From assembly GCF_037055325.1 (NCBI RefSeq), contig NZ_CP146373.1:2232001-2296000 (forward strand): a stretch of 64,000 nt of DNA, read 5' to 3'. Each line of letters begins with the position of its first letter. The first letter of the stretch is position 1. Of this stretch, positions 10,508 through 55,765 are shown in pieces. The position numbers and the translations under genes were made by a program. The notes beneath the pieces were generated by a model. It did not search any database. It was not told where the DNA came from and saw nothing but the letters and a program-made list of their open reading frames with translations. This DNA comes from Arachnia propionica (GTDB taxonomy: Bacteria > Actinomycetota > Actinomycetes > Propionibacteriales > Propionibacteriaceae).

Positions 10508-10520
10508 CATGTGATTCAGA

Positions 10521-10793: not shown

Positions 10794-10795
10794 GC

Positions 10796-11029: not shown

Positions 11030-11448
11030 CAGATCTCACCTGCTTCGCGTTTGATGAAACGGGCCTTGAAGGGCAGCTTGTGGATTGCGAGGCGCATCGC
11101 CTCACGGGCCACGTCCTCAGCCACACCGGAGAGCTCGAAGAGCACCCGACCGGGTTTGACGTTGGCCACCCACCACTCGGGCGAGCCCTTGCCGGAACCC
11201 ATTCGGGTCTCAGCCGGTTTCTTGGTCAGGGGACGGTCCGGGTAGACGTTGATCCAGACCTTGCCGCCACGCTTGATGTGACGGGTCATGGCGATACGAG
11301 CTGCCTCGATCTGACGGTTCGTCAGGTAGGAGGACTCGAGCGCCTGGATGCCGTACTCACCGAAGGCGAGCTTCGTGGCGCCCTTGGCAACACCGTCCCG
11401 CTTCGGGTGGTGCTGTTTGCGGAACTTGACGCGACGAGGAATCAGCAT
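11029..11448 (-). CDS. rplP: 50S ribosomal protein L16
   Basis: L16 (uL16) helps place aminoacyl-tRNA in the A site. The product is 139 residues and starts [19 protein letters not shown]. It contains the signature [20 protein letters not shown] and [17 protein letters not shown]. It is of normal length, 3 bases after rpsC and overlapping rpmC by one base. Confidence 0.98.
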
Positions 11449-11451
11449 GGC

Positions 11452-12264
11452 TCACGCTCCTGCGTTCGAGGTTTCGGGAGCAGCCTCGACCGGTGCCTGG
11501 GCTGCTTCTGCGCGGCGGCGTCCGCCACGCTCGGGACGATCCCCGCGACCCTCGCCGCGTCCCGGGCGGCGGCCCGAACGCTGACGACCGGTGGGGGCGG
11601 AGTTGCGGGCGGCCTTCTGGGCAGCACGTTCGGCACGGGTGCCGGTGACGTCGCCCTTGTAGATCCACACCTTGACGCCGATCCGCCCGAAGGTGGTGCG
11701 GGCCTCGTAGAAACCATAGTCAATGTCGGCGCGAAGGGTGTGCAGCGGCACCTGGCCGTCACGATACCCCTCGGAACGCGACATCTCGGCCCCGCCGAGA
11801 CGCCCGGAGCACTTGATGCGGATGCCCTTAGCGCCGGAACGCATGGCCGTCTGCTGGGCCTTGCGCATCGCGCGACGGAAAGCCACACGGGCCCCCAGCT
11901 GCTCGGCGACACCCTGCGCCACGAGCTGGGCGTCGATCTCGGGGTTCTTAACCTCGAGGATGTTCAGCTGCACCTGCTTGCCGGTCAGCTTCTCCAGCTC
12001 GGCCCGCACCCGCTCCGCCTCGGCGCCGTTACGCCCGATGACGATCCCGGGACGCGCGGCGTGAAGGAAGATGGTGACCCGTTTGGAACGACGCTCGATC
12101 TCGATGGAGGAGATCCCGGCGCGTTCCAGCGACTTGGTCAGGTAGTTACGGATCTTCACGTCCTCAGCCACGTAGTCTGCGTAGTTCTTCGTCGCGTACC
12201 AGCGGGTGATGTGATCCGTGGTGATGCCGAGACGGAAGCCGTTCGGGTTGATCTTCTGCCCCAT
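11452..12264 (-). CDS. rpsC: 30S ribosomal protein S3
   Basis: S3 (uS3) lines the mRNA entry tunnel and has helicase activity in the ribosome. The 270-residue product opens [18 protein letters not shown], has a KH domain ([20 protein letters not shown]) and the C-terminal domain ([20 protein letters not shown]). The last ~55 residues form an Arg/Gly/Ala-rich tail beyond the E. coli length, a common actinobacterial extension. AAGGAGGCCTGAGC precedes the ATG. Confidence 0.98.
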
Positions 12265-12266
12265 GC

Positions 12267-12668
12267 TCAGGCCTCCTTCGACTCTCGGGGTTCAACGACC
12301 ACAGTGATGTGGGAACCGCGTTTCAGGATCCGCGAAGCGGAACCCTTGGCGCGGGGACGAATGCGACGCAGGGTCACGCCCTCGTCGACGAATGCCTTCG
12401 ACACGTAGAGGTCCTGGGGGTCCAGGTCCTCGGCGTTCTCAGCGTTGGCGACGGCCGAGGCCACCACCTTGTACACGGGCTCCGAAGCCGCCTGGGGGGC
12501 GAACCTCAGGGCGGTAAGGGCCTCGGTGACATCCATGCCGCGGATCAGATCCACCACACGACGCACCTTCATCGGGCTCATCCGGACGTGACGCGCGATG
12601 GCGTAGGAGCCGGGACGATCACCGAGCAGGGCCTCGCGACGGGCGCTGTTGCCGTTTTCGTTGCTCAT
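12267..12668 (-). CDS. rplV: 50S ribosomal protein L22
   Basis: L22 (uL22) has a long loop in the exit tunnel; changes there give macrolide resistance. The product is 133 residues with an N-terminal extension ([20 protein letters not shown]), then [20 protein letters not shown] and the family tail [20 protein letters not shown]. No deletion is seen in the beta-hairpin loop, so nothing suggests resistance. It is 2 bases upstream of rpsC. Confidence 0.97.
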
Positions 12669-12694
12669 CGTTTCGTTAGTCCTATCCTCGCGCC

Positions 12695-12976
12695 TCAGCG
12701 GCGACGGGCCTTCTTGTCTTCCTTCACGTGCCCCCGGAAGGTGCGCGTGGGGGCGAATTCGCCCAGCTTGTGACCAATCATGGCCTCGGTGATGAACACC
12801 GGGACGTGCTTGCGACCGTCGTGCACGGCGATGGTGTGGCCCAGCATGTCCGGGACGATCATCGAACGGCGCGACCAGGTCTTGATGACATTCTTGGTGC
12901 CCTTTTCGTTCTGAACGTCCACCTTCTTCATCAGGTGGTCGTCAACGAAGGGGCCTTTCTTCAGGCTGCGTGGCAT
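12695..12976 (-). CDS. rpsS: 30S ribosomal protein S19
   Basis: S19 (uS19) lies in the 30S head near the A-site finger. The product is 93 residues, the normal length, opening [19 protein letters not shown] and containing [20 protein letters not shown] and the signature [24 protein letters not shown] precedes the ATG. Confidence 0.98.
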
Positions 12977-12994
12977 ATTTCCTCAGGCTCCCTA

Positions 12995-13831
12995 TCAGCG
13001 CTTCTTGCCGGTCTTGCGGCGACGCACGATGAGACGGCTGCTCGCCTTGTTCTTGTCGCGGGTACGGCCCTCGGGCTTACCCCACGGGGACACCGGGTGA
13101 CGACCACCCGAGGTACGGCCCTCGCCACCACCGTGCGGGTGGTCGACGGGGTTCATCACGACGCCACGAACGGTCGGGCGGATGCCCTTCCAGCGGTTAC
13201 GTCCTGCCTTGCCCCAGTTGATGTTCGACTGCTCGGCGTTGCCGACCGTGCCGATGGTGGCACGGCACCGGACGTCGACCATGCGCATCTCCCCCGAGGG
13301 CATGCGCAAGGTGGCGTACTTGCCCTCACGGGCCACGAGTTGAATGGCCGCGCCAGCGGAACGACCCAGCTTGGCGCCGCCTCCGGGACGCAACTCAACG
13401 GCATGAACCGTGGTGCCGACGGGGATCTGCCGCAGCTCCAGGTTGTTGCCGGGCTTGATGTCGGAGCCCGGACCGGAAACCACGATGGTTCCCTGGGTCA
13501 GGCCGTTGGGGGCGATGATGTAGCGCTTCTCGCCGTCGCGATAGTGCAGCAGCGCGATGCGGGCAGTGCGGTTGGGGTCGTACTCGATGTGAGCGACCTT
13601 CGCAGGCACACCATCCTTGTCATAGCGCTTGAAATCAATGATGCGATAGGCCTGCTTGTGACCACCACCGATGTGGCGCGTGGTGATACGACCCGAGTTG
13701 TTACGGCCACCGGTCTTCGATTTCGGGGCGAGCAGCGACTTCTCCGGAGTTGAACGGGTCAGTTCGACGAAATCGGAGACGCTGGCGCCGCGGCGACCCG
13801 GGGTCGTCGGCTTGTACTTGCGGATACCCAT
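12995..13831 (-). CDS. rplB: 50S ribosomal protein L2
   Basis: L2 (uL2) is needed for subunit association and peptidyl-transferase assembly. The product is 278 residues, opening [20 protein letters not shown]. It has the RNA-binding domain [20 protein letters not shown] and the C-terminal signature [19 protein letters not shown] with the conserved histidine near the peptidyl-transferase centre. It is of normal length. It lies 17 bases after rplW. Confidence 0.98.
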
Positions 13832-13848
13832 GACGAATCAGTCCTTCT

Positions 13849-14157
13849 TCACTCGCCCTGGCCGGCGAAGATGTCGATGCGGTCACCCTCGGCGACGGTC
13901 ACGATGGCACGTTTGACATCGACCCTCTTGCCGATGCCGAAGCGAGTGCGACGACGCTTGCCCTGACGGTTCTGGGTGTTGACGGCTATGACGCGAACAT
14001 CAAAGATCTTCTCGATAGCGATCTTGATCTCGGTCTTGTTCGCGCGGGGGGCCACGACGAACGTGTACTTGTTCTCGTCGAGGAGGTTGTAGCTCTTCTC
14101 GCTGACGACGGGACGCCAGATGATGTCGCGGTGATCGCGGATCTTCAGCTCGCTCAC
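13849..14157 (-). CDS. rplW: 50S ribosomal protein L23
   Basis: L23 (uL23) is the docking site for trigger factor at the exit tunnel. The product is 102 residues, containing [20 protein letters not shown] and the signature [15 protein letters not shown]. It starts with GTG at 14157, overlapping the rplD stop (GTGA) with GGAGGAGAA just upstream. Confidence 0.97.
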
Positions 14158-15038
14158 TTCTCCTCCTTGCCTTCCATCACGTTCACGAAGCCGGCGGCCT
14201 CAGCTGCCTCGGCGGTCTTGAACCAAACCTCGGCGATAGTGCGGGAGTACCACGGCGACTCAGGGGTATGGAATTTCATGGAATCCTCGTTGCCCTTGAT
14301 CTCGAACCCAGCAGGCGGCTTGTCACCGCGGTAGGAGTTCTTGCCGTAGTCCTTCTTGGCCTTCACCTCGGTCGTGGCCTCGGCCTCAGATTCGGTGGCG
14401 ATCGCCTCGGCACCCCGGTTAGTGAACGCGGCCAGCGCCGCGGAGGTGAACACGACGGTGTCGGCCACCAGCACGTCGTAGGTGTTGAGTTGGTCGACGG
14501 CCAGGACGTGGATGGTCGGGACGTTGCGCAGGCTCAGCCAGGAGACCTCCTCGAACCGGTCGAGGACCACGAGCACCTTCTTCAGTTCACCCAGCTGCGC
14601 GAGCGTTTCAAGAGCGGTGCGGGTGGAGGGAACCTCGCCGGGAACCAGCTCGGAGACCACGAAGACCTGGCCGTCGCGGGCGCGATCGGACAGGGAGCCG
14701 CGCAGGGCCGCGGCGATCATCTTCTTGGGGGTGCGCTGGGAGTAGTCGCGAGGCTTGGGACCGTGAACGGTGCCGCCGCCGGTCCAGATCGGGGAACGAC
14801 GTGAACCGTGACGGGCACGACCGGTTCCCTTCTGTCGCCACGGCTTGCTACCGCCGCCACGAACCTCACCGCGGGTCTTGGTGGAGTGCGTGCCCTGGCG
14901 GGCAGCGGCAAGCTGGGCCACCACGACCTGATGGATCAGAGGAATGTTGGTTTGGACGTCGAAGATCTCGCCGGGCAGCTCGGCGGTGCCGGCTTTCTTA
15001 CCCTTGGGAGCGTGGACGTCAACGGTGATGGAGCTCAT
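14154..15038 (-). CDS. rplD: 50S ribosomal protein L4 with C-terminal sunset-like extension
   Basis: L4 (uL4) reaches into the exit tunnel; in enterobacteria it also represses its own operon. Residues 1 to ~215 are a normal L4: [20 protein letters not shown], then [20 protein letters not shown] and [20 protein letters not shown]. The product is 294 residues, about 80 longer than usual. After an acidic linker rich in Ala/Glu/Thr ([16 protein letters not shown]), the tail reads [20 protein letters not shown] then [20 protein letters not shown]. This IKGN...HTP.SPWY...AEVWF..AEAAGF pattern matches the 'sunset' domain known as an extension of some actinobacterial ribosomal proteins. Its role there is unknown. 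The ATG overlaps the rplC stop. Confidence 0.95.
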
Positions 15039-15697
15039 GCCTGCTCACCCTTCTTTGCTGCGCTGCGCACGACGACGAGCGAGCCGTTGTTGCCGGGGAC
15101 CGCGCCGCGAACCAGCAGCAGGCCTCGTTCGGCATCGACGGCGTGGATCTTGAGGTTCTGGACGGTCACCTTGGCGTTACCCATGCGACCCGCCATGCGG
15201 AGGCCCTTGAACACGCGACCGGGGGTGGAGCAGCCACCGATGGAACCAGGTGCGCGGTGCTTGCGGTGCACGCCATGTGAACTCTTGAGGCCCCCGAAGC
15301 CGTGGCGCTTCATGACGCCCGCAGTGCCCTTGCCCTTGGTGGTCCCGGTCACGTCGACGAACTCACCACCGGCGAAAAGCTCGGCGGTCAGCTCCTGGCC
15401 AAGAGTGAACTCGGATGCGTTGGCCGTGCGCAGCTCGAGCAGGTGCCTGCGAGGAGTGACACCGGCCTTGTCGAAGTGCCCCTGGGCAGGTTTCGTGACC
15501 TTCCTGGAAGCGATGGCTCCGAAGCCGAGCTGGACGGCGTTGTACCCGTCCTTCTCGGGGGTGCGGACCTGGGTGACGACACAAGGCCCGGCCTGGATGA
15601 CGGTGACGGGGACGACCTTGTTGTTCTCGTCCCAGAGCTGGGTCATGCCGAGCTTGGTGCCCAGGATGCCCTTGACGATTCGTTCGCTGTTGCTCAT
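15035..15697 (-). CDS. rplC: 50S ribosomal protein L3
   Basis: L3 (uL3) is one of the two initiators of large-subunit assembly, with a loop near the peptidyl-transferase centre. The 220-residue product begins [20 protein letters not shown] and carries [20 protein letters not shown] and the signature [24 protein letters not shown] four codons upstream is in frame, but the ATG at 15697 has GAGG about 8 bases before it. It follows rpsJ by 8 bases. Confidence 0.97.
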
Positions 15698-15705
15698 CTC
15701 GGACC

Positions 15706-16017
15706 TCACGGAAGCTTGATTTCGATGTCGACACCGGCCGGAAGGTCGAGGCGCATCAGCAGATCGACGGTCTTCGGCGTGGGGTCGAGGATGTCGATCA
15801 ACCGCTTGTGGGTGCGCATCTCGAAATGCTCGCGGCTGTCCTTGTACTTATGGGGCGAACGGATCACACAGAACACGTTCTTCTCGGTCGGCAGCGGCAC
15901 GGGGCCTGCCACCTTGGCACCGGTGCGAGTCACGGTGTCGACGATCTTGCGCGCCGAGCTGTCGATGACCTCGTGGTCATACGCCCGCAACCGGATGCGG
16001 ATCTTTTGTCCCGCCAC
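15706..16017 (-). CDS. rpsJ: 30S ribosomal protein S10 (NusE)
   Basis: S10 (uS10) is a 30S head protein that also binds NusB and NusG in antitermination and transcription-translation coupling. The 103-residue product includes [20 protein letters not shown] and the signature [20 protein letters not shown]. It starts with GTG at 16017 behind AGAAGGAATGAACT. It is the first gene of the S10 block. The 275 bases upstream should hold the promoter and leader; an imperfect hairpin (CTCCGACC/GGTCGGGAG, 16086-16107) lies there and could be an L4-responsive element by analogy, which is unproven. Confidence 0.98.
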
Positions 16018-16292
16018 AGTTCATTCCTTCTACTTGTCCCTGATGGAGTTCTCATGAACTTTTTGGGGCCTGGACCCCTCCGCCGCTCCGACCCCCGAGG
16101 TCGGGAGTGTCGGGCCCGAAGCCGCAAGGAAAGACCTGCCTCCAGCTTTCCGGAGGTCACATCTTGCGCTTGGGCGACCTGCTCGACCTCGACAAGGAGG
16201 GCATTCGTCACACACACGACAGACGCCACCCCTTGCGGAGCAACCTGCACATTCTTGCATGCCCTCGCCGACGTGCCAAATCGCCGCTGCGT

Positions 16293-16967
16293 TCAGGGGG
16301 TGCTGCGGTTCAGGAAAGCGAGGATGGCGCGCACCCGGCGGTTCTCGTCTCCGGGCTCGAAACCGAGTTTGGAGAAGATGTTGGAAACATGTTTTGCCAC
16401 AGCAGCCCCAGACAGGAAAAGCCGCCCAGCGATTTGGTTGTTGGAGAGTCCCTGGGCCATGAGCTCCAGCACCTCGAGTTCTCGCGGAGTGAGTTCTCCC
16501 AGCCCAGAACGGGAAGCCTGCATCATGGCGCGTGCGACCTCCGGGTCGATCACCACTCCCCCGCCAACCACCATCCGCAACGCACCGATGAAGTCCGCGA
16601 CCTGCGCCACCCGGTCCTTGAGGAGGTACCCGGCTCCACCCGCACCTGGCGGGGCCGGGAGGGCGAACAGCTCCTGGGCGTGCAGCGGGGAGACGTACTG
16701 GCTGAGTACCAGAACCGCCACCCGGGGGTGTTCCTCCTTGATCCGGATAGCGGCCTGAAGGCCGTCGTTGGTCATGGTGGGCGGCATCCGAACGTCGGTG
16801 ATCACCACGTCGGGAACCGCTTCCCGCCCGGCCAGTTCGGCGATGGCGGCCAGGAGCGCATCAGCGCGGTGTTCCTGCCCGACGATCTCGTAGCCCTGGC
16901 GTTCCAGGAGCCCGACGAGCCCTTCACGGAGCAGAGCGGAGTCGTCGGCCATCAACACTGTGGTCAT
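16293..16967 (-). CDS. LuxR/NarL-family response regulator
   Basis: This is a DNA-binding response regulator. The 224-residue product has a receiver domain with acidic pocket Asp8-Asp9, phosphoacceptor Asp58 (VVITDVRMPP) and conserved Lys in GYLLKDR, then a LuxR-type helix-turn-helix (ELTPRELEVLELMAQGLSNN, about 156-215). It overlaps the upstream histidine kinase gene by 4 bases (ATGA), so the two form a two-component pair. The divergent ABC exporter genes at 17977-20099 are a likely target from position alone; drug or peptide stress would be a typical input. Confidence 0.93.
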   Translation of the reverse strand: MTTVLMADDSALLREGLVGLLERQGYEIVGQEHRADALLAAIAELAGREAVPDVVITDVRMPPTMTNDGLQAAIRIKEEHPRVAVLVLSQYVSPLHAQELFALPAPPGAGGAGYLLKDRVAQVADFIGALRMVVGGGVVIDPEVARAMMQASRSGLGELTPRELEVLELMAQGLSNNQIAGRLFLSGAAVAKHVSNIFSKLGFEPGDENRRVRAILAFLNRSTP

Positions 16968-45071: not shown

Positions 45072-45279
45072 CTGTTGGTATCACTTTCGTTGTCTGGACG
45101 GGTATCCCTGGCTCGCAGCCGTCCCCAAGGAGCTTCCCGGGTCACCGTTTCCGTGAGCATCGCTGACGCGGCTGCCGTGCGAACTCCGCACAGACCCGGG
45201 ACTTCTTCGCAACTCAAGGATCCTCAGGGTCATGCCAGGGCACGCACAAAGTGTCCACTCACGGCGGACACACTCGGCA

Positions 45280-45308
45280 AGGGTACAACGCTCGATTGTC
45301 GGGGTCAA
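45280..45308 (-). promoter_or_regulatory. Promoter of the rpsL-rpsG-fusA block
   Basis: On the minus strand TTGACC (45308-45303) and TACCCT (45285-45280) are 17 bases apart. The leader to rpsL is about 200 bases and its start contains an inverted repeat GTGTCC/GGACAC (45249-45269). Confidence 0.65.
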
Positions 45309-45352
45309 ACATACGATTCCACGAGCCCTCCTTCACCATGTGGGGCCAAAGA

Positions 45353-47356
45353 TCACCCAAACGAGCCATCCCGCGAATTTCCGGCGACCGATCGCTCTTG
45401 TTCGAGTGTGTTGATGACCCAGTCGGTGATGGGGTTGGTTTCGGTGCGGATGCCGGTGTCGTGGGTGCCGTTGGGGTCGTACCAGAGGGTGGTGTTTCCG
45501 CCGAGTTCTCTGGAGTGTAGCGCCCAGGTGAGTCCTTGGCGGGGGTTGACGCGGGCGTCTTTGACGCAGATGACTATCAGGGTTGGTGGTGGGGTGGTGG
45601 TGAGTTTGCGCAGGGGGGAGAGTTCCTCGAGGGCGTGTCGGTGGTGGGGGTTGTGTTGGGGGTCGCCCCATTCGTCTCGGTCGGCTTGTTCGGTGAGTGA
45701 GGGGTGGCGGAGCAGTGATTCGAGGGGGTCTATGTAGCCGTTGACGATCACGGCAGCGTCGATAGGTGCTGTGTGATCGGCGAGGAGGGATGCGGTGAGG
45801 AAACCTCCGGCCGAGACGCCGATGACGCATATTGTGGTGGCGGTTACTGCTCCTTGACCGTTGCGTAGCCAGGCGATGGCTGCGATGGTGTCGGCCAAGG
45901 AACGGCCGCGTCGGTCCTGAGAGCCGGCGTGATGGCGTTGGGGGTCTCCTCCTCCTCGAACGTGGGCTGTCGCCACGGCGTAACCGCGATCCATCCAGCG
46001 ACCAAGTTCCTGGTCGCCGTCGAGGTCGATGTCGATTCCGTAGGCCCCATAGACCATGACGATGACCGGCCCGTGGAAGGTGGCGAAGTCACCGCGCCAT
46101 CGGATGTCAAGATCACACTGATACCCGTCCGGGGAGACGACACGCTCGCGTGTGGCGTGGATATCTGCTCCGGGATGCTGATGCGACGGGTTGAGTACCC
46201 GTCCGGCACCGTCGAGGTACCAGGTGATAGGGGGTGTTCCCACGATCATCTCGGTGATGACGAATCCGGTTGAGACGGCGCCGGGACTCGGGGTCAGCTG
46301 GAACATTCCCGCTGTGCTCAGCAAAATCCGCTGACCAACAGCAGCCGTGGCGGTGTGTGCCAGTGGTATCCACACCAAGTCCTCGGTGTGGCAGGTGTCC
46401 TGGGTTCGACTGACCCGGGCGAGCACGGCCCCGTGGGCGCCTACGAGATGGCAGAGTTTTCCCTGCCCGGCCGCTACCTGCCACCGATTCTGTACCTGAC
46501 CGTCACTGATCTGGCTGGCCTCGATACGCCACCGCTGATTGATGTTGACCGCGTGGAGCAGCACGTAACCGGCATCCAGTGGCGCAACATCGATCAGGCC
46601 GGGATCACACACCTGTTCAGACACAGGAATGGCCTGCTGCGGATCGGTGAGGTCGAAGACCTGCCAGACCCTGCGACTACGAACGCCGTGACCGACCTTG
46701 ACGAAACACCGCACGGAACATGCCTCGACCTTGACCCCGGCGGCGGGTCCCTCGGCAAGTACCCGCGGAGGATCATCCAGACGGGTCGTAGTGACCGGCA
46801 ACAGGCGCGCTCTGGCCCTGCCCGGCTCGTTGGGATGCGGCTCCACGAACACCACAACCGGCGACTCTGCCTGAGCCAACACTGCTTCGGGATACAGTCC
46901 CACCAGTACGAGTCCGGGTTCCGGATCGCCCCATTGGTGAACCGCCACCGCGTAGCGTTCCCGTTCGGGGTCGCGCAGAAGACGACACCACCACCCCAAC
47001 TCCACAGACAGGTCACGCCTGCCCGTCACCCAGCCACGCAGTCCCTCGATCCCGGTTTCCGCAAATACCAAGAGTGCGCCCATCGGATGCTGCTCCACCG
47101 GATCCGACACCGGCTGCCCCACCAAGTCCTTGTCATCCCCCGTGGCCAAACGCAACCATCCCCCAGCCAAAGGCACCACCTCAACACCATCAGCACCCCA
47201 TCTCTCACTCCAAGAGGTTTCAGGATCGCCCTCGACTGTGTTGATGTCTTGACCGTGTTCCTTCAGCAACTTCATGAGTGTGGTGTCATCAACCTCCAGC
47301 CATCGACTCCAGGGCGAGGAAGAACCACTCGCAGACGAAACCTCAGGAATATCCAT
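45353..47356 (-). CDS. S9-family (prolyl oligopeptidase-like) peptidase of the lanthipeptide cluster
   Basis: The 667-residue protein has an N-terminal propeller-like region (~400 residues) and a C-terminal alpha/beta-hydrolase domain. The catalytic triad is visible: Ser in IGVSAGGFL (about 515), Asp in CVKDARVNP (about 601) and His in NGTHDTG (about 630). S9 enzymes cut short peptides after particular residues, and in class III lanthipeptide pathways such as flavipeptin one removes the leader. Its place as the last gene of the cluster, 62 bases after the ABC exporter, supports that role here. No signal peptide is seen, so it should be cytoplasmic. Confidence 0.86.
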   Translation of the reverse strand: MDIPEVSSASGSSSPWSRWLEVDDTTLMKLLKEHGQDINTVEGDPETSWSERWGADGVEVVPLAGGWLRLATGDDKDLVGQPVSDPVEQHPMGALLVFAETGIEGLRGWVTGRRDLSVELGWWCRLLRDPERERYAVAVHQWGDPEPGLVLVGLYPEAVLAQAESPVVVFVEPHPNEPGRARARLLPVTTTRLDDPPRVLAEGPAAGVKVEACSVRCFVKVGHGVRSRRVWQVFDLTDPQQAIPVSEQVCDPGLIDVAPLDAGYVLLHAVNINQRWRIEASQISDGQVQNRWQVAAGQGKLCHLVGAHGAVLARVSRTQDTCHTEDLVWIPLAHTATAAVGQRILLSTAGMFQLTPSPGAVSTGFVITEMIVGTPPITWYLDGAGRVLNPSHQHPGADIHATRERVVSPDGYQCDLDIRWRGDFATFHGPVIVMVYGAYGIDIDLDGDQELGRWMDRGYAVATAHVRGGGDPQRHHAGSQDRRGRSLADTIAAIAWLRNGQGAVTATTICVIGVSAGGFLTASLLADHTAPIDAAVIVNGYIDPLESLLRHPSLTEQADRDEWGDPQHNPHHRHALEELSPLRKLTTTPPPTLIVICVKDARVNPRQGLTWALHSRELGGNTTLWYDPNGTHDTGIRTETNPITDWVINTLEQERSVAGNSRDGSFG

Positions 47357-47418
47357 TATCGATCATGTCTCTCAATCATTGCTTGCATGGTGCTTCAGGA
47401 CGCGTGACTGATGGTGTT

Positions 47419-49404
47419 TCAGGCTGCGACGAGGGACCGGAACAGTGCAGAGCGTCGGTGCACCTCGGCGGGTGGTCCGAACTCAACCAACCGTCCCTTG
47501 TCCAGCACCAAGACCAGATCGGCGATGTCCATGCCGAAGTGGCCATGTCCGGCAGCGAAGGTGGTGATCCCCCCCATCGTGGTTCGAATGAGGTTCATGA
47601 TCTGTTCCCGGTTCAGGACGTCGAGCCCGGAGGTGATCTCATCCAGCAGGAGCATCCGTGGCTGGCCGACGAGGGTCCTGGCTATCGCCAGCCGCTGGCG
47701 TTCACCGCCGGAGAAGGCGTACGCCGACTCCCCCACCGGTGTGTCCAACCCGCCGTCGCGGGCACTGATCGTGTCAGCCAAACCCACCTGACGAATGATC
47801 TCCCAACAATGCTCGTCATCAATGTCGCGTCCCAGCAACAGGTTGTCACGCACGGTTCCGCTGAACAACGGGCAGGCCTGCTCGATGTAACCAACCTGTC
47901 GTCGGTACTCGTCATCGTCATGCTCACCGAGCGGAATTCGATCTGCAAGGATTGTTCCGTCGGCGGGGACGATGAATTTCTCCAGCAGCGACAGGATGGT
48001 TGACTTGCCCGACCCTGAGGAACCGGTCATGGCGACCCAAGAGCCAGCTGGGACGCTGAATGTAACGCCGGCCAGTGCGTATTCGCGATTCCCACCTGCC
48101 TGCGGGTATCGCACTGACACATTGCGAAAATCTATCTCCCCCATCAAACCGGTTTCCGTCGGGAATCCACCAATCTGAGTAGCGACTGGCTTGAGCTGGA
48201 TCCGAGATGCGGATTGATCGGTCACGGCACGCAGGTCGATGATCCGCTGCAATGCTCCCAGACACTCTGCCATGTCCATGACGGTGCCCGCGCTCCCGGT
48301 GATCGGGGCGATGATGAGCATCATGTACATGAAAAAAGATACCAGCGCCTCAACGGAGATACTTCCGGTCTGCACACGCAGCACCGCGATACAGACGATC
48401 ACCAGCAGCGTCGCCTGTATGCAGATCGTGACCACCGGGCTCATGAAGGCATGTGCCTTGGCGCCTCGGTTGGCAGCATCGAGGAGTTTCTGACTGGATT
48501 TGTCCAAGCGACGAGCCGCAAATTTGTCAGCTACGAAGGCCCTCAGGGTCAGTACTGAGTCCAGCGCGCGGGTCACCTCCGCGACATATGCCCCCTGGGC
48601 TTCCTGACGATCGAAGGAGAACGAGGTCAGTCTGTTTGATATGACGATGATGAATGCTAGACAGCCCACCGTCAAACCAACCGCCGAGACAGTGAGGATC
48701 GAATCGATGACCGTCATCTGGGCCAGCGCTCCCACCACCATGACGATCCCGCCGAGGGCTTGCACGGGCCCTTGAGTGAAAACTTTGTCGAGGCGCTCGG
48801 AGTCTATGCTGCACCGGGCGACCAGATCAGCCGTGGGGTGCTGAACGAGCTTGTCCGCAGGAACCCGTAACGCAATTGCTGCGGACTCGTCTCGGAAAGC
48901 ACGCACTGTACGATTACCAGCCTTCGCGCCCACAACATTCACAACAGCCGCCACACCCGAAGCGAAAACAGCTAGCCCAGCCAGAATCGCCCCGTACGGA
49001 AGCGCAGCAACGAATCCCCCATTCTGCAACACCCCTACAACTGATCCGGCCAACATAGGCTGGGCCAGCGATACAAGAGAGGACAATACCGTACCAACAA
49101 AAATCAGAACCAAGGACCTCGGTTCTAAACGCAGAATCCTCAGGAGACGGCGCAGACGACTCTTCGGCGGCTCAGCGAGGAAAACGGCGACCGACCCGCC
49201 ACCCTGAGAATGGCAACGAAAGTCCTCACTAAGAACAAGATCCCGAGGATTTTTGGCCAATGGCGTTCGAGGTTCCGGCAGAGTCCGGGAACTCTCGGGC
49301 ATAGCACGCCGGGGAACCATGCCGCGGCCGAACGAATCCACCCGGAACGGGTCCAGATGTTTCGCAAAATCCGAGGTCACAGCTATTCCCTTGCCTTTAC
49401 CCAT
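47419..49404 (-). CDS. ABC exporter (fused permease-ATPase) of the lanthipeptide cluster
   Basis: This 661-residue half-exporter should carry the modified peptides out. After a polar N-terminus of ~85 residues without the C39 peptidase cysteine motif, it has six membrane helices (e.g. LIFVGTVLSSLVSLAQPMLA; LLVIVCIAVLRVQTGSISVE) and an ATPase domain: Walker A GSSGSGKST, signature FSGGERQR, Walker B MLLLDEITSGLD. Absence of C39 means that leader removal needs another enzyme, fitting the S9 peptidase next door. The start at 49404 has a weak site (GAAAGTGAAACA); later in-frame starts are possible. Confidence 0.88.
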   Translation of the reverse strand: MGKGKGIAVTSDFAKHLDPFRVDSFGRGMVPRRAMPESSRTLPEPRTPLAKNPRDLVLSEDFRCHSQGGGSVAVFLAEPPKSRLRRLLRILRLEPRSLVLIFVGTVLSSLVSLAQPMLAGSVVGVLQNGGFVAALPYGAILAGLAVFASGVAAVVNVVGAKAGNRTVRAFRDESAAIALRVPADKLVQHPTADLVARCSIDSERLDKVFTQGPVQALGGIVMVVGALAQMTVIDSILTVSAVGLTVGCLAFIIVISNRLTSFSFDRQEAQGAYVAEVTRALDSVLTLRAFVADKFAARRLDKSSQKLLDAANRGAKAHAFMSPVVTICIQATLLVIVCIAVLRVQTGSISVEALVSFFMYMMLIIAPITGSAGTVMDMAECLGALQRIIDLRAVTDQSASRIQLKPVATQIGGFPTETGLMGEIDFRNVSVRYPQAGGNREYALAGVTFSVPAGSWVAMTGSSGSGKSTILSLLEKFIVPADGTILADRIPLGEHDDDEYRRQVGYIEQACPLFSGTVRDNLLLGRDIDDEHCWEIIRQVGLADTISARDGGLDTPVGESAYAFSGGERQRLAIARTLVGQPRMLLLDEITSGLDVLNREQIMNLIRTTMGGITTFAAGHGHFGMDIADLVLVLDKGRLVEFGPPAEVHRRSALFRSLVAA

Positions 49405-49515
49405 TGTTTCACTTTCAAACCGCCTAGAAGATTATCAGAATGCTATTTGTCAAAAATTACAGATAGGTGGCGACAAACGATTCTCGCCGCCACCCACCAT
49501 AGAACTCAGACACTG

Positions 49516-49644
49516 CTAGCCGCACGCCCAGATACTGTAGGTCGAGCGGGAACACCAGAAAATACTCTGGTCAGTGGAGACTCGCCCCTTGGCATCCTGG
49601 GGCATCTCGACGGTGTCAGCTTGAAGATTCAAAACATTGGCCAT
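49516..49644 (-). CDS. Class III lanthipeptide precursor, copy 4 (diverged)
   Basis: This 42-residue peptide starts MANVLNLQADTVEMPQDAKG and ends in a core STDQSIFWCSRSTYSIWACG. The leader keeps the VLNLQ motif, the class III leader element (ILELQ in labyrinthopeptin). The core has S-x3-S-x3-C (STDQSIFWC) and then S-x2-S-x3-C (STYSIWAC), the latter being the classical labionin spacing. It is the last copy before the ABC gene and differs from the others in both leader and core. The ribosome site is AAAGGAAGTAGCAATT. Confidence 0.87.
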   Translation of the reverse strand: MANVLNLQADTVEMPQDAKGRVSTDQSIFWCSRSTYSIWACG

Positions 49645-49810
49645 AATTGCTACTTCCTTTACGATTGTCTTCGAACATCATGCGATAGTTGTTCAGCGGC
49701 ACCACTTCGTTCATCACTCCACTTGATGCGGTACACCGAACCAAGGACGGTTGGGTGGCGGCAAACGACTCTCGCCGCCACCCACCATAGAACTCAGATA
49801 CAGCTAGCGA

Positions 49811-49936
49811 TCAGCACACAAAGAGGCTATGACTAGTCGAGCCAGAGGAGCACCAAACAATGCTGGTATGGTCGGAGCGCTTGGTCTCCTGGGTCATCTC
49901 AGCGGTATCAGCCTGAAGATTCAAAACGTTAGCCAT
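49811..49936 (-). CDS. Class III lanthipeptide precursor, copy 3
   Basis: This 41-residue peptide shares the leader of copies 1 and 2 (MANVLNLQ...TQETKR). Its core begins SDHTSIVWC as in copies 1 and 2 but continues SSGSTSHSLFVC, one residue longer and with Phe-Val replacing Trp-Met. Ser and Cys positions allow S-x3-S-x3-C in both halves. It is preceded by AAAGGAAGTAG and followed by a hairpin. Confidence 0.88.
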   Translation of the reverse strand: MANVLNLQADTAEMTQETKRSDHTSIVWCSSGSTSHSLFVC

Positions 49937-50108
49937 AATTGCTACTTCCTTTACGATTGTCTTCGAACATCATGCGATAGTTGTTCAGCGGCACCACTTC
50001 ATTCATCACCCAACTCGATACGGTGCTCACCGAATCGGATACGGATGGGTGGCGGCAAACGACTCTCGCCGCCACCCACCCACCATAGAACTCAGATACA
50101 GCTAGCGA

Positions 50109-50231
50109 TCAGCACATCCAGAGGCTATGGCTGTTCGAGGTGGAACACCAAACAATGCTGGTATGGTCGGAGCGCTTGGTCTCCTGGGTCATCTCAGCGG
50201 TATCAGCCTGAAGATTCAAAACATTGGCCAT
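50109..50231 (-). CDS. Class III lanthipeptide precursor, copy 2
   Basis: This 40-residue peptide is identical in amino-acid sequence to copy 1, although the DNA differs at several synonymous sites (for example GTT TTG for GTT CTG and CGC TCC for CGT TCT). Selection for the same product is therefore likely. Core: SDHTSIVWC followed by STSNSHSLWMC, two S-x3-S-x3-C units. Its ribosome site (AAAGGAAGTAGTAATC) is weaker than that of copy 1. Confidence 0.88.
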   Translation of the reverse strand: MANVLNLQADTAEMTQETKRSDHTSIVWCSTSNSHSLWMC

Positions 50232-50401
50232 GATTACTACTTCCTTTACGATTGTCTTCGAACATCATGCGATGGTTGTTCAGCGGCACCACTTCATTCG
50301 TCATTCCACTCGATGCGGTACACCGAACCAAGGACAGATGGGTGGCGGTAAACGATTCTCGCCGCCACCCACCCACCATAGAACTCAGATACAGCTAGCG
50401 A

Positions 50402-50524
50402 TCAGCACATCCAGAGGCTATGGCTGTTCGAGGTGGAACACCAAACAATGCTGGTGTGATCAGAACGCTTAGTCTCCTGCGTCATCTCAGCGGTATCAGC
50501 CTGAAGATTCAGAACGTTGGCCAT
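50402..50524 (-). CDS. Class III lanthipeptide precursor, copy 1
   Basis: This 40-residue peptide is too short for long-ORF calling. The leader MANVLNLQADTAEMTQETKR has the hydrophobic VLNLQ motif that class III synthetases recognise. The core SDHTSIVWC-STSNSHSLWMC has two Ser-x3-Ser-x3-Cys units and resembles labyrinthopeptin A2 (SDWSLWEC at its start). It has a near-perfect ribosome site (GGAAGGAGGTGAAAACCC before the ATG), the strongest of the four copies. It lies 81 bases downstream of lanKC. Confidence 0.9.
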   Translation of the reverse strand: MANVLNLQADTAEMTQETKRSDHTSIVWCSTSNSHSLWMC

Positions 50525-50568
50525 TGGGTTTTCACCTCCTTCCAAAAATTTTCAGTGTTGGGTTTATA

Positions 50569-50605
50569 GTTCCCCACCCCACCCCGTGTTGTGGGGGTGG
50601 GGAAC
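50569..50605 (-). terminator. Hairpin between lanKC and the precursor genes
   Basis: GTTCCCCACCCC (50569-50580) pairs over 12 bases with GGGGTGGGGAAC (50594-50605), touching the lanKC stop codon. It may terminate the synthetase transcript, protect the precursor mRNA from 3'-5' decay, or allow partial read-through that raises precursor dose over enzyme. Confidence 0.75.
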
Positions 50606-53241
50606 TAGTGACTCGGTACGACCCCGATGAGGTCGCGTGTTTCCGAGCCAAGCTCTGAAACCGCCGGTTGCTGTAGCAGGTCGGCTGTGCGGACGCTGAT
50701 CGGCAGAGCAAGGTACGGGTGCTGGGATCGGTAGGTGTGCAGCGCCAGCGCGACTCCGGCAGCGCCGGTACCCAAGTCGGAACTGAGACGGATCAACCCG
50801 TCACCGATCACCAAGGCGTGTTCGTCATGGGTCAGAAGACTGCCGAGCAGCAGACCCGCTTGTCGATCGGCCTCCGCCCGATACTGGTCTCCAGCGGCTG
50901 TCAGCGTGACGAGGATGCCGGCGCGACCGTGATCCAAACCCGGATAGACGTAGAAGTTGGAGGAGCAGGCTTTGATGATCCCGGCACGTTCCTGCCGGGT
51001 CAGCACTGGCTCACCCGTGATACGTTCGAGCGCCGAGGCGATCAGCAGCACACCCGCTGATCCCCAGTCGTTGTAGGGAAGGACCCGGCTCTTTTCGCGG
51101 TCTTCGATCATCACCTCACCGGTTGGGATGGTGACGCACGCATCCAGATCCGCGCGCAACCGAACCCTGGCCCTGGCAAGCGGTTCCTCAGCGCCGGTGA
51201 CGGCATGGGCAACCAAGTCGGTCAACGCCACCCCAGTCAATCCCCAAAACAGTCCCCGGCGACGACACAACGCAGTCCACGCTGATCCGTCCGGCGTGAG
51301 GCAGGCATCCAACCTGCGATACGCCGCAACCGCACGATCCATCAACTCCGAATCCCCGGTCGTTTTCGCAACCTCTAGTGCAGCCAAGATCACTCCCGCC
51401 TGACCCGCACCCAGATCCAATCGACGCCGCCCCAAGGCCCGGTCGAGTGCCACATCCGCGGCGGCCACAGCATCCTGGTGTGCACCCACCTCGCTGAGTG
51501 TCAGCGCAACCCCGGTCAAACCATTCAACAATCCCGACGCTTCCTGCTCCGGCCACGCCTTGGCAATCTTCCGCAACGCATCCACATCACGATCAGCTGG
51601 TCGAACACCAACACGCTGCTGCGCCAACACCACGCCAGCACGCCCAGTCGTGATCACCTCATGAACACACTCCCCCGACTGGCTGATATCACCAGGAAAC
51701 GCCCCACCCGAACCAAACTGCCGCGACCACTCGATCCCGCTCAACAACCCGGAAATCCCAGAATCCAGCCCCGGTGGCTGAGGTGGCACACCAACAGTGA
51801 CATCACCTGCCGTCACTGGACGAGCGCCAGCGGCATAACGCCCCTCCACCGACGCCAACTGCTCAGCTGCCCGTTCGCCATAGATCTCACGGACCTTTCG
51901 ACGACACCGATCCCAAAACGCCGGCGACACCGCCTCAATCTCAAAGTCAACGCAATACAAGAGCATGATGCAACGCGCCACTGCAAACCAGTCAGCCTGC
52001 ACGGCATCCAATGACTTGTCAGCACAGTACTCGAACACCCTGAAACCGAGCTCACGCGGTGAATCCACCCTACTGGCATCCTCCAGATCAAGCATCGTCA
52101 CCGTTCCATCATCGGAGACCACCACATTCCCGGGATGGAGATCGCCGAATGCCCAACCACGCTGGTGAATCCTTTCGACGATGGCGATGATTTGTTCCAC
52201 GATGGCCACCGCTTGGCGGGCGTATTCTGCGGGATCGTTATCTTGAAGACGATCGTTATATGACATCCAGGACGTGAGGGCTACACCGGGAATGTAATCC
52301 ACTTCCAAATAGCGGTGCTCCCAGGCTGTGAACGAACCTCGAAGCTGCTGCACGCCTTTCACGCCGACAAGGTCTCGCAGCACTTCTTCCTCAGCCAACT
52401 GGCGCTGCAAGGCGCACCGGTTCCGGCCGTCCAGCCCGGCATGCGGTCTGGCTTCTCGTAGAATCCTGACCTCACCATCAGGCAGTTCCGCGCGATACAC
52501 CCCACCCGCATTGCTGAAGCTCAAGGGCTTGATGCTCACGAAATCATCCAACCGGGACTGGCTCGACTGCTGCGATGCCTCATATGCCGGTCGAAGAATT
52601 TCTGGAAGCTCGACTCCCTCAGGAATCACAACACGTGGATCACGATGATCGGGTATCAATTGCATGTTACGAAGATCAACAATCGACTCAACCGGGTCAT
52701 CATCTACATCAGGCACTCGCATACCAAGAATTGCCCCATACCGAACGAACACAGGAGCATTTGGGACGTATCGAAGGTCGGAGAGGATATAAGGCCCTTC
52801 CTGCCCCTTCAACGTATCGCCGAGAGCGATCAGTAGTTCCCGCAACTGGTCATCGTCATTGGGATAGATCGTGATGAACTTACCCGCCGCACCACGAGCC
52901 TGATTCTTAGAAGAAGAGCCACGCAACTGGCCCAAAGTCGGCAAAAACTTAAACGAAACCCCAGCCTCCAGGCACACCCTTGTGGTTCGCGCCAAAGTCT
53001 CCACAGCGCACTCAGGTGTCGCCGACACATGAATCTTCCACCCCTGCATACGAGGCTGCCAATCGCGGGGCGTCCACCCCTCCCAACTACCCCGGCACTG
53101 CACCAGCCATCCAGCCGGCAACTCCACCGACTGCAGCCGCTTATCCGACAGGCCAGCCAGCATCTCGACAAGCGGTCCCGACTGACCATAGAAAGGCGAT
53201 TCCTTCACCGCTCCCTGAAAATACTCAAAACGTACAGCCAC
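50605..53241 (-). CDS. Class III lanthipeptide synthetase (LanKC)
   Basis: This 878-residue three-domain enzyme phosphorylates Ser/Thr, eliminates phosphate and forms (methyl)lanthionine or labionin rings. The N-terminal ~220 residues are the lyase region. A Ser/Thr kinase domain follows with GDLHPGNVVV (near 367) and MLDLEDAS. The C-terminal cyclase region (~480-860) has LanC-type glycine repeats (GLLNGLTGVAL, GAGQAGVIL, LDHGRAGIL, LGTGAAGVAL). The zinc ligands of LanC are missing: NDWGSAG and LDHG stand where WCxG and CHG would be, which marks class III and not class IV. It starts with GTG at 53241 behind GGGAGAAGAATCT. It is the first gene of the cluster. Confidence 0.92.
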   Translation of the reverse strand: MAVRFEYFQGAVKESPFYGQSGPLVEMLAGLSDKRLQSVELPAGWLVQCRGSWEGWTPRDWQPRMQGWKIHVSATPECAVETLARTTRVCLEAGVSFKFLPTLGQLRGSSSKNQARGAAGKFITIYPNDDDQLRELLIALGDTLKGQEGPYILSDLRYVPNAPVFVRYGAILGMRVPDVDDDPVESIVDLRNMQLIPDHRDPRVVIPEGVELPEILRPAYEASQQSSQSRLDDFVSIKPLSFSNAGGVYRAELPDGEVRILREARPHAGLDGRNRCALQRQLAEEEVLRDLVGVKGVQQLRGSFTAWEHRYLEVDYIPGVALTSWMSYNDRLQDNDPAEYARQAVAIVEQIIAIVERIHQRGWAFGDLHPGNVVVSDDGTVTMLDLEDASRVDSPRELGFRVFEYCADKSLDAVQADWFAVARCIMLLYCVDFEIEAVSPAFWDRCRRKVREIYGERAAEQLASVEGRYAAGARPVTAGDVTVGVPPQPPGLDSGISGLLSGIEWSRQFGSGGAFPGDISQSGECVHEVITTGRAGVVLAQQRVGVRPADRDVDALRKIAKAWPEQEASGLLNGLTGVALTLSEVGAHQDAVAAADVALDRALGRRRLDLGAGQAGVILAALEVAKTTGDSELMDRAVAAYRRLDACLTPDGSAWTALCRRRGLFWGLTGVALTDLVAHAVTGAEEPLARARVRLRADLDACVTIPTGEVMIEDREKSRVLPYNDWGSAGVLLIASALERITGEPVLTRQERAGIIKACSSNFYVYPGLDHGRAGILVTLTAAGDQYRAEADRQAGLLLGSLLTHDEHALVIGDGLIRLSSDLGTGAAGVALALHTYRSQHPYLALPISVRTADLLQQPAVSELGSETRDLIGVVPSH

Positions 53242-53418
53242 AGATTCTTCTCCCTATGTCTTCCAATCAAAATTTAGCGATTTTCCAGATAGCTCAGCCA
53301 GCCAAGTTCCAGAACACCAACTGATATAAACAGTCGATTCCCACACGACTAGCACGGAATCAGCTCTGGCGCGAAGCATTTATTCACACACCTTGAGCGA
53401 CACTCACATGTATTCTTT

Positions 53419-54320
53419 GAGGCTTATTCATAGGGGTGTTTTGGCTTTCTCCAACTAACGCTTTATCCGAGGGGGATGTGGGGGCGGCTTGCCCGATCTG
53501 AGACAATTCAAGGTGTAGAAAGAAAACCCTCAGATGAAAGACAAGCCGCTGCCGTGAATACTACCACGATCCTTGAGCGTGATCAGATCCTTGACCTGTG
53601 TGAACTGATCCACACATCCCGTTCCGGAAACCTATCCGGCAGCAGGATCCCGTGCCCTAGGCTTGTTCCGCTGTATCCAAATCACTGTGTTAACACTCAG
53701 ACACAACCTCACCCAAGAGTTACTGGCCGACATCCACACGGTTTCCCAAGCCACCATCTCGAGAGTAGTGGCGGTCTACACTCCCTTGATCGCCGAGGCC
53801 CTCCAAGCCTGGGTGCCCGGCACGGGGGACCTCGACCCAGACCGCCAGTACATCATCGACGGTACTCTGGCGCCCTGCTGGTCATGGCACGACCGTCCCG
53901 AGCTGTACTCAGGCAAACACCACACGACGGGGGTGAACCTGCAAGTGGCCTGCACCCTGACCGGACAGCTCGCCTGGATCCCCAGAACCATCAGCAGGCA
54001 GTGTGCATGATGCAAAGGCCATCACAGAATCCGGATTCCTCACAACCCTCAATGCTCACAATCATATCGGGGACAAGGGCTACATCGGATTGGGAATGAT
54101 CACCCCCGTGAAGAAACCCGCCCATGGTGAACTCACCGACACCGATAAAAGAAACAACACGACCATCAACCGCGTCCGCTACCTCATCGAACGTGTCATC
54201 GCGAACCTCAAAACCTGGCGTGTCCTGCACACCGATTACCGTCGCCCTTACAACACCTTCGAAACCACAATACAAGCCGTCACGGGACTCGTCTTCGCCT
54301 ACACCCCATGAATAAGCCTC
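53419..54320 (+). mobile_element. IS5-type insertion sequence
   Basis: This 902-base element has inverted ends GAGGCTTATTCATAGGGGTGT (left, from 53419, 20 of the bases shared) and ACACCCCATGAATAAGCCTC (54301-54320), differing by one inserted base. It is flanked by a direct TTT on both sides. It carries one transposase reading frame broken in two places. It sits just upstream of lanKC and is the likely source of the miniature element at 23406. Confidence 0.85.
53554..54311 (+). pseudogene. IS5-family (DDE_Tnp_4) transposase, frameshifted
   Basis: Three frames are needed to read the protein. From GTG 53554: TTTILERDQILDLCELIHTS. From about 53663: RHNLTQELLADIHTVSQATI (helix-turn-helix) and YIIDGTLAPCWSW with the first catalytic Asp, then HHTTGVNLQVACTLTGQLAW. 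From about 53985: GSVHDAKAITESGFL, then IGDKGYIGLGMITPVKKP and RVRYLIERVIANLKTWRVL with the later catalytic residues. Frame changes lie near 53640-53660 and 53975-53985. Some IS5 groups use one programmed shift; two breaks suggest decay. Confidence 0.82.
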
Positions 54321-54773
54321 TTTGTTCTTAAATAGAAATACAATCTCGCAAGGTAATATCAAAGCCCCCTCGTATTTATCGAATCCAACCGGTCCAGAGC
54401 TAGCAGCAAGTTGCATAACCCGATTGATGATTCATTTCGATCCGCTGTTGCGGAACACGCCACCTAGAACATCACGCCTACTTTCATCATGTCAACCCCT
54501 CCAGTCGAGATCTCACCGTCACTCGAAGTCGCCACCCAAGCGACTTGCCTGAGGTTTCGTACCGCTGCTTTGTGAGTTTAATTTTTGAAATATGACCCCA
54601 GAAATGGGTTCGCAAACAGAAAGATCCCCAGTCAGAAACGCTTTCACATATGATTGAATGTGACACTTTAGCCCGAGTTGCTTGCGCGAGAATCCCCTAC
54701 CGGTAGCATGAGAACTGACACGGATCACCCAACGTTTCGTGCCGGTTTCTTTCGAGGCGGGGGAGGGCACAGC
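54321..54773. other. Gap between the two insertion sequences
   Basis: These 453 bases have no convincing gene. The right part (from about 54680) should contain the left end and promoter of the IS3-type element. Base composition is AT-richer than the core blocks. Confidence 0.5.
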
Positions 54774-55085
54774 ATGCCGCGAAGAATAGATCTAAATGTG
54801 AAGAAACGAGCGTTACGGCTACTGCGCGAGCACCGAGGTCGGTACCCGACGTTGACGGCTGCCTGCATCGCCGTGGCACGCCACGAGGGGATTGGAGCCG
54901 AGACCCTGCGACGCTGGGCGGTGCAGGCCGAGATCGATGAGGGGTCCCGCACCGGGACCAGCAGCAGGCAGCATGAGCAGATCCGAGCCTTGAAGGCGGA
55001 GAACATTCGACTACGGGAGGATGTGGCGATACTGAGAGCAGCGACAACTTTCTTCGCGGGGGAGCTCGACCCCTACAACCGCTGA
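54774..55085 (+). CDS. IS3-family transposase OrfA
   Basis: OrfA is the DNA-binding part of IS3 transposases. The 103-residue product has a helix-turn-helix (RYPTLTAACIAVARHEGIGA then ETLRRWAVQAEID) and a leucine-zipper-like C-terminal helix (IRALKAENIRLREDVAILRA). The ATG at 54774 follows GGGGGAGGGC. OrfB should follow in the -1 frame and does, but is truncated. Confidence 0.85.
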   Translation: MPRRIDLNVKKRALRLLREHRGRYPTLTAACIAVARHEGIGAETLRRWAVQAEIDEGSRTGTSSRQHEQIRALKAENIRLREDVAILRAATTFFAGELDPYNR

Positions 55086-55105
55086 CCATCGCCTTCATCG
55101 GGGAG

Positions 55106-55435
55106 ATGCGCGGCCGAGGTTTCGCGGTCGAGTCGATCTGCCGGGTCCTGCGAGGACAGGGCTGTCAGATTGCTGCGAGGACCTATCGGGCCTGGAAGAC
55201 ACGTCCACCATCGGCCCGGGCGATCAGCGATCAAAGAGTCCTAGAAGCTATCGAGAAGCTCGCTTGGACGACCGACTCTCGAGGTCGCAGGCGTCTGACT
55301 CCTGAGGGTCGTTACGGACGTCAGAGGATGCTGACGGCGTTACGCAACGCAGGCGTGGATGCCACCCCCGGAGCGGTGGACAGGGCCATGCGGAAACTCG
55401 GTCTCAGTGGGATCAAACGCAGCAGATCGGCGTAG
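55106..55435 (+). pseudogene. IS3-family transposase OrfB, truncated
   Basis: Only ~110 residues of the N-terminal HTH_21 region remain (FAVESICRVLRGQGCQIAAR; GRYGRQRMLTALRNAGVDAT), out of roughly 280 in a complete OrfB. The integrase core with the DDE residues is missing: the frame stops at 55435 and no further transposase sequence follows. The element is dead. Confidence 0.85.
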
Positions 55436-55723
55436 GAAAAGCTTGACGTGTCCAGTCGAGTCGCAACGTCACAGCTCCAACGCTGAAGGTGCGCGTCCCG
55501 GCCTCATCCCAAGGAGTTGGGTGGACGCATGAGCCGTGTCCTTGGAGATGAACACGTCTGCGCCCGCCATGAAGTGACGTGTACCTCGAGGTCCTACCTC
55601 AGTACCGATCAAGCGCTCGGCGCGTCTGCGATCCCCATGTCTAGCCCATGCACGGAAGAGCGCGCAGATTCCTCTGGATGTGCGGAGCCAGAGTCTTTGC
55701 GTGCTCCTCCTGCTGAACAACGG
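55436..55723. other. Gap between truncated IS3 and rpoC end
   Basis: These 288 bases show no gene. Short frames in both directions have no ribosome site or family resemblance. The region probably contains the right-hand junction of the truncated element. Confidence 0.5.
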
Positions 55724-55755
55724 AAGGGGCGGTCCCCCATGGGTGACCGCCCCTT
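55724..55755 (-). terminator. Terminator after rpoC
   Basis: AAGGGGCGGTC (55724-55734) pairs perfectly with GACCGCCCCTT (55745-55755) around a 10-base loop, 10 bases past the rpoC stop. Confidence 0.85.
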
Positions 55756-55765
55756 CTGAGCCTCG

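Follow-up and report, generated by a model that had tools for sequence, protein, structure and literature searches.

We report a complete class III lanthipeptide cluster in a 64,000-nucleotide stretch of the Arachnia propionica genome (hereafter, the window; G000:C1:2232001-2296000 of a single-contig, 3.31 Mb genome), in which a lanthionine synthetase (LanKC), four short precursor genes, a fused ABC exporter and an S9 peptidase follow each other in this order of transcription on the minus strand (45353-53241; Table 1). We consider it probable that these genes make up a full class III pathway in which the S9 peptidase, an enzyme resembling oligopeptidase B (OpdB), acts as the leader protease and cuts after Lys or Lys-Arg. 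What appears to be new, judging from sequence, are members and a variant of a known pathway, among which the predicted trypsin-like protease and a branch of unusual cyclases stand out.

The window cores have new sequences, the genus they come from includes oral members, and no product was found for them in the open-access literature. The same literature yielded no report of the cluster and none of a trypsin-like S9 peptidase in class III maturation, subscription papers lying outside the search; the open-access passages retrieved for Arachnia and lanthipeptide hold nothing on class III, and Pseudopropionibacterium with lanthipeptide gave no match. Relative to the first-pass annotation of this DNA, our analysis adds the OpdB-like peptidase and its matching Lys-Arg border, a second, paralogous cluster and a wider family of related clusters.

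A complete cluster with four short precursor genes

The first-pass annotation had proposed a class III cluster of consecutive minus-strand genes, and every one of its parts was recovered in place. The synthetase scores 640.9 bits against NCBIfam NF038151 (cut-off 575) and 305 bits against the class IV model, under its cut-off of 650; its Pfam matches to RamC_N and LANC_like lie above cut-off and that to Pkinase slightly under. The exporter, said to lack a C39 peptidase, matches ABC_membrane and ABC_tran, C39 being absent among 11 Pfam rows, and the presence of an S9 peptidase was likewise borne out.

Table 1. Features of the lanthipeptide cluster and its flank, in window coordinates
Feature	Position	Strand	Remarks
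lanKC, class III lanthionine synthetase (lyase-kinase-cyclase)	50605..53241	-	878 aa, GTG start
Precursor A1, MANVLNLQADTAEMTQETKR/SDHTSIVWCSTSNSHSLWMC (slash, predicted border)	50402..50524	-	40 aa
Precursor A2, protein identical to A1	50109..50231	-	40 aa, 8 silent differences
Precursor A3, leader as A1, core SDHTSIVWCSSGSTSHSLFVC	49811..49936	-	41 aa
Precursor A4, leader end AKGR (predicted border), core VSTDQSIFWCSRSTYSIWACG	49516..49644	-	42 aa
lanT, fused ABC exporter (membrane + ATPase), without C39	47419..49404	-	Pfam
lanP, OpdB-type S9 peptidase, predicted leader protease	45353..47356	-	Pfam Peptidase_S9; closest solved relatives PREPL, bacterial OpdB
Hairpin after A1	50334..50377 (by eye)	-	stretch 50320-50400, z -2.99
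Hairpin after A2	50043..50084 (by eye)	-	stretch 50025-50107, z -5.14
Hairpin after A3	49749..49786 (by eye)	-	stretch 49730-49809, z -3.81
Hairpin after A4, then T-rich stretch	49462..49498 (by eye)	-	stretch 49440-49514, z -5.04
Transposase remnants, DDE_Tnp_4 type, upstream of lanKC	53663..54311	+	Pfam
Second transposase remnant, HTH_Tnp_1 / HTH_21	54678..55435	+	Pfam, both below cut-off

All four predicted precursor genes were found, each with the VLNLQ leader and spaced 292-295 bp from start to start. Between A1 and A2, 8 of 123 bases differ without a single amino-acid change; both encode one peptide, so that the cluster specifies three different cores. A degenerate DNA pattern of the leader start matches the window four times, always at the precursor array, with a maximum of 0 matches in 100 shuffles. 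Whether the small frames persist in relatives carrying the same lanKC had been named as the refuting check; using a wider pattern with one mismatch allowed, we found the leader in three of 39 genus genomes, the host included (nine places in G000, four in G002, one in G005), which leaves the proposal unrefuted, and all 14 places adjoin lanKC places, while the reversed pattern has no match in any of the 39 genomes. Over leader codons 2-19 of seven representative genes (21 pairs; identical copies A2, L004b-d, L035b and L036b and the divergent L035c left out), pS is 0.45 and pN 0.11, a ratio of 0.24 that stands without a frame control, the shifted-frame script having given no usable pair. Among the close relatives of the window cluster, leaders are thus constrained and cores strongly different. 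The leader pattern and its shuffles, conservation in the genus, the reversed control, the silent A1/A2 differences and pN/pS rule out chance open reading frames and show the small frames to be real genes. The three precursors tested against model NF038159 (A1, 19.3 bits; A3, 21.1; A4, 16.3) fall below its curated cut-off of 30, so that automatic naming may miss the window precursors. The remark that they had gone unlisted was fair, yet this is ordinary for class III, in which 55% of precursors are unannotated according to the part of PMC7268733 consulted.

Each precursor gene is followed by a strong hairpin (Table 1). Hairpins were present in nine of nine folded stretches, four from the window and five picked by eye from relatives (L004 one, L035 two, L036 one, L037 one), with z-scores of -2.99 to -5.85 against 200 shuffles and stem sequences that differ; one shuffle folded as well in the first stretch and none in the others. 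In more distant clusters, 20 stretches folded without shuffles displayed no such hairpin after every precursor. The hairpin after A4 and its T-rich stretch may form a weak terminator ahead of lanT.

The cluster lies between rpoC and rpsL (junction window 45072-55765). Across 12 genus genomes this junction holds the cluster in two (G000, G002), about 0.3-0.4 kb in five and 1.7-9.4 kb of other cargo in the remaining five; five proteins tested from three of these other inserts comprise ABC ATPases, a LacI-type regulator and glycosidases. This makes the junction a variable site, and acquisition of the cluster is probable. A near-identity search of a plasmid collection returned no match that would point to a plasmid origin. 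The transposase remnants at 53663..54311 are probably outside the pathway, and the remnant that follows them has a 694-bp counterpart, 76% similar in DNA, at this site in L036, a cluster of A. massiliense.

We also observed that, in A. massiliense, the synthetase and exporter at this site (L036 8968-14575, corresponding to window 47419-53241) are nearer to the site-2 copies than to those of the window, the middle of the exporter having 88-94% DNA identity to the former and 74-85% to the latter. Gene conversion or replacement could account for this likeness; six-row trees, one for each of the two proteins, did not settle the forks.

Related clusters and the synthetase branch

The host genome carries a second complete, paralogous cluster (L004, G000:C1:1776000-1795000, 8271-16791), whose LanKC is 84% identical to that of the window. 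It encodes four identical 32-residue precursors with a single-ring core, RSSWVSRWVCWG, at 353-bp spacing, together with a degenerate fifth copy of 24 residues that lacks Cys. With L035 and L036 in A. massiliense (G002) and L037 in G005, these clusters make up a close group spanning G000, G002 and G005, with exporter counterparts in L004, L035, L036 and L037 that are 70-84% identical to the window exporter; NCBI taxonomy places [Pseudopropionibacterium] massiliense (NZ_LR027842.1) in Arachnia, Propionibacteriaceae.

Sequence identity places the window LanKC in a wider Propionibacteriaceae branch. With up to four candidates scored per genome, 11 of 198 Propionibacteriaceae genomes proved to encode a LanKC of roughly 50% identity or higher, one of them G062, of the window's own genus, with a branch LanKC 60% identical. 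The sample analysed here covers 10 of the 11 genomes (all but G136, whose LanKC is split over two contigs), with 12 clusters and 37 distinct precursors, tabulated without the Cys-less L004 copy and a 34-residue frame of L089. The largest array, L084, has nine genes for eight distinct peptides, and the smallest, L037, a single gene; neither an S9 peptidase nor the main exporter was found near L088. At both A. massiliense sites the precursors persist and the S9 gene appears damaged, being only a remnant in L036 (14741-15154) and containing a frame change before the catalytic Asp and His in L035 (14838-16844), so that the peptidase may be dispensable, the pathway may be decaying in this species, or the record may be in error. 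The L036 precursors read Lys-Trp instead of Lys-Arg.

All eight lyase residues of ThurKC (8SAP) named in section 9 of PMC10604976 are conserved in the window LanKC. Its cyclase motif is GLDHG, with no Cys at either zinc-Cys position and the zinc-site His retained. This His is present in 12 of 12 branch clusters and in none of 21 LanKCs outside the branch; the motif is DHG in 10 of the 12, LHHG and LLHG occurring once each, and mostly LFxG outside. We read the branch cyclase as a putative metal-free or residual-metal variant, and a residual zinc His in such a branch bears on the origin of metal-free cyclases.

Elsewhere in the host genome (L005 6919-7620; G000:C1, about 3.183 Mb) there is a stand-alone RamC_N lyase of 233 aa with all eight lyase residues and no kinase or cyclase, neighboured by an ABC ATPase, an FtsX permease, an S9 peptidase and a two-component system.

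The S9 peptidase and the leader-core border

When the window S9 was compared, as a three-row profile, with solved structures, PREPL scored 66.6 bits, bacterial OpdBs 59.8-61.8 and the best true prolyl oligopeptidase (POP) 45.7; two protozoan OpdBs scored 54.7 and 43.4, the second (2xe4) falling under POP, which leaves the ranking of families ambiguous. As comparators we used four genomes, each of 8 Mb, from the same order, which we guess to be Kribbella with a FlaP-type S9, in which a LanKC stands beside an S9 with Trp at position 576 (SpOpdB numbering) and the borders are glycine-rich and lack Lys and Arg. The one comparator S9 of the four compared with solved structures (L059) places POP first, with 400 bits against 134 for OpdB.

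The catalytic residues of the window S9 are intact, and it has Asp at positions 460, 462, 576 and 578, the 576-equivalent being its own residue Asp559. At 576, Asp is present in 10 of 10 branch S9s, where all four comparators have Trp, which we take to be the proline-stacking residue of POP; at 460, Asp (10/10) corresponds to Thr in the comparators (4/4), and at 462 and 578 Asp is found in nine of 10 branch S9s each. According to the available part of PMC3778648, the specificity of Salmonella OpdB for basic P1 residues may be set by Glu576/Glu578, and in T. brucei it is essentially the residue equivalent to 576 that sets it. The curated OpdB model NF007511 gives only 52 of 1313 bits, over the catalytic part only, and Pfam returned no propeller family; for these reasons true membership of the oligopeptidase B family (S9A) was rejected, and we call the enzyme OpdB-like. 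A structure prediction from a two-row alignment reached a mean pLDDT of 32.9 and gave no usable model.

The precursors carry a matching border. Of the 37 distinct branch precursors, 36 have a Lys or Arg among the five positions that precede ring 1, and L084a has no basic residue there; the typical border is EEK-A/G-S, with Lys-Arg-Ser in A1-A3, and the Lys is conserved although the cores vary. Outside the branch a basic border occurs in five of 22 precursors, four of these five beside another Asp-type S9: by neighbouring peptidase, the counts are 0 of 4 for Trp-type, 1 of 12 where no S9 relative was found nearby and 4 of 6 for Asp-type, the failures beside an Asp-type S9 being a poly-Ser frame in L038 and one of five frames in L090. 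Because of their common descent, the branch clusters do not provide independent counts. Leader cleavage probably takes place after Lys or Lys-Arg, and not after Pro, given the OpdB-like fit, the Asp at 576 and the basic border residue.

Two of these outside loci merit description. In L090 (G141), a LanKC that does not belong to the branch is accompanied by five frames resembling precursors (10348-11193), of which four have an Arg close to the border, and by an S9 with Asp at 576; L038 (5139-5321, G005:C83) is a precursor-like frame by another LanKC, with a long Ser run before WGSSSCYSIWCC.

In the pathway we propose, LanKC would bind the VLNLQ leader, phosphorylate core Ser/Thr and then eliminate the phosphate, and close two thioether rings per peptide as lanthionine or labionin. 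The OpdB-like S9 would remove the leader through an acidic S1 pocket after the border Lys or Lys-Arg, and the exporter, without C39, would export the product, the order of cleavage and export being presumed. The hairpins may keep precursor mRNA in excess. By default, we would guess that the product serves in competition with neighbours.

Alternative readings and comparison with known systems

The leader might instead be removed by an unclustered M1 peptidase (AplP-like), or by the S9 cutting after Pro, like FlaP, followed by aminopeptidase trimming. Both routes have precedents in the part of PMC10885120 consulted, which describes FlaP, an S9 peptidase, as cleaving behind Pro(-12) and attributes the maturation of several class III peptides to M1 enzymes of the AplP type. 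The host genome encodes one M1 peptidase above the Pfam cut-off, and 27 of the 37 branch precursors have a Pro between residue 10 and ring 1, so that, judged by the leaders alone, a cut after Pro is conceivable. That stretch has no Pro, however, in the leaders of A1-A3, L004, L035a and L036, and the uniform replacement of the comparator Trp by Asp at 576 and a border Lys held constant before variable cores also weigh against removal by another route, which we regard as unlikely. A FlaP-type prolyl oligopeptidase as such was rejected on the closer fit to PREPL and bacterial OpdB than to POP, the Asp in place of Trp and the Pro-less A1-A3 leaders. It is more doubtful still that the cluster is silent or decaying: although there are transposase remnants upstream (53663-55435), S9 genes broken or lost at both A. 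massiliense sites and a degenerate precursor copy in L004, every cluster gene in the window is a full-length frame with catalytic residues intact, and all eight A1/A2 differences are silent.

The nature of the rings is much more evenly balanced. A1-A4 have an LxLQ-type leader and a Ser/Thr-x2-Ser/Thr-x(2-5)-Cys core with two Cys each, one per ring. For ring 1, S-x3-S-x3-C fits A1-A4, L004, L035a, L035c and L037, and in L035c it is the sole reading found for the ring plan's first Cys, and L036 reads S-x2-S-x4-C; in A1-A4 an x2 reading exists for every ring, some only with Thr or x4/x5 to Cys, and several cores also permit readings with Thr or x4. All 29 precursors of more distant branch clusters read S-x2-S, with x3 to Cys in 27 and x5 in two. 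The rings may be plain lanthionines (Ser-x3-Cys), with the Ser four positions upstream staying dehydrated or serving the protease, a reading to which we give a little less than an even chance. It is favoured by A1-A3, in which the canonical labionin position, three residues ahead of the central Ser in ring 1, is occupied by Asp, and by PMC7268733, which notes in the part consulted that, depending on the class III peptide, Sx2Sx3C ends up as either lanthionine or labionin. Labionins are favoured by a Ser four before the central Ser of ring 1 in six of seven distinct two-ring cores of the close group (five ring-1 sequences; L036 differs) and by noursin, whose labionin, formed from residues 3, 7 and 15 according to section 6 of PMC10206099, has an S-x3-S carbacycle.

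The first-pass annotation had likened the cores to labyrinthopeptins, and of this the two-ring Ser/Ser/Cys plan stands, as do the class III synthetase and LxLQ-type leader common to the window, the labyrinthopeptins with their LabKC and the labyrinthopeptin-like cluster L069. Labyrinthopeptins have two Sx2Sx3C labionin rings and extra Cys for a disulfide. The L069 core, SNWSLWECCSQGSLFNCC, has vicinal Cys pairs; A1-A4 have none, so no labyrinthopeptin-type disulfide is possible. Family membership, with the same ring topology and a disulfide, was rejected on the missing vicinal Cys, the other spacing of ring 1 and the limit of two Cys per core, and we hold it to be very improbable despite the shared plan and aromatic-rich cores, since the window LanKC is just 30% identical to that of L069. 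No relative of the window S9 was found in the L069 region.

Returning to the OpdB-like leader protease, all elements may belong together in a distinct Propionibacteriaceae class III branch that combines precursor arrays (one to nine genes, a nearly fixed Lys border, variable cores), a residual-His cyclase, possibly intermediate between zinc-dependent and metal-free forms, a trypsin-like leader protease and, in the close group, an S-x3-S-x3-C labionin whose ring 1 would have gained one residue in G000, G002 and G005. We advance this joint reading tentatively, as somewhat less probable than not. A trypsin-like S9 subtype, if real, could explain S9 genes in class III clusters with Pro-less leaders, as in Brevibacterium, where the part of PMC5719810 consulted gives weak flaP homologues in six of seven class III clusters and a leader Pro in one of six predicted precursors; it would also offer a simple tool, cutting after Lys/Arg, for removing class III leaders.

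Several characterized systems share parts of this arrangement. Flavipeptin of Kribbella flavida (PMC10885120 and PMC5719810, in the parts consulted) likewise pairs a LanKC with a clustered S9 leader protease, FlaP. Noursin, as described in the available sections of PMC10206099, is a class III product of NorKC with an S9 peptidase, NorP, and a labionin of S-x3-S spacing, a spacing that can be read in ring 1 of the window cores, but has one Cys, x7 to that Cys and a histidinobutyrine crosslink. Andalusicin (PMC10604976, sections consulted) has in common with the window, through ThurKC, the lyase residues, the kinase DxE motif and a cyclase without zinc Cys, whereas the window cyclase has Asp-His where ThurKC has Phe-Asp, and the andalusicin leader protease is an M16B pair, unlike the window S9. 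With oligopeptidase B (S9A; Serratia 7NE4), finally, the window S9 shares the catalytic Ser region, Asp460 and the acidic pair 576/578, and differs in that only its C-terminal catalytic part aligns, in having Asp and not Glu at 576, and in standing within a RiPP cluster.
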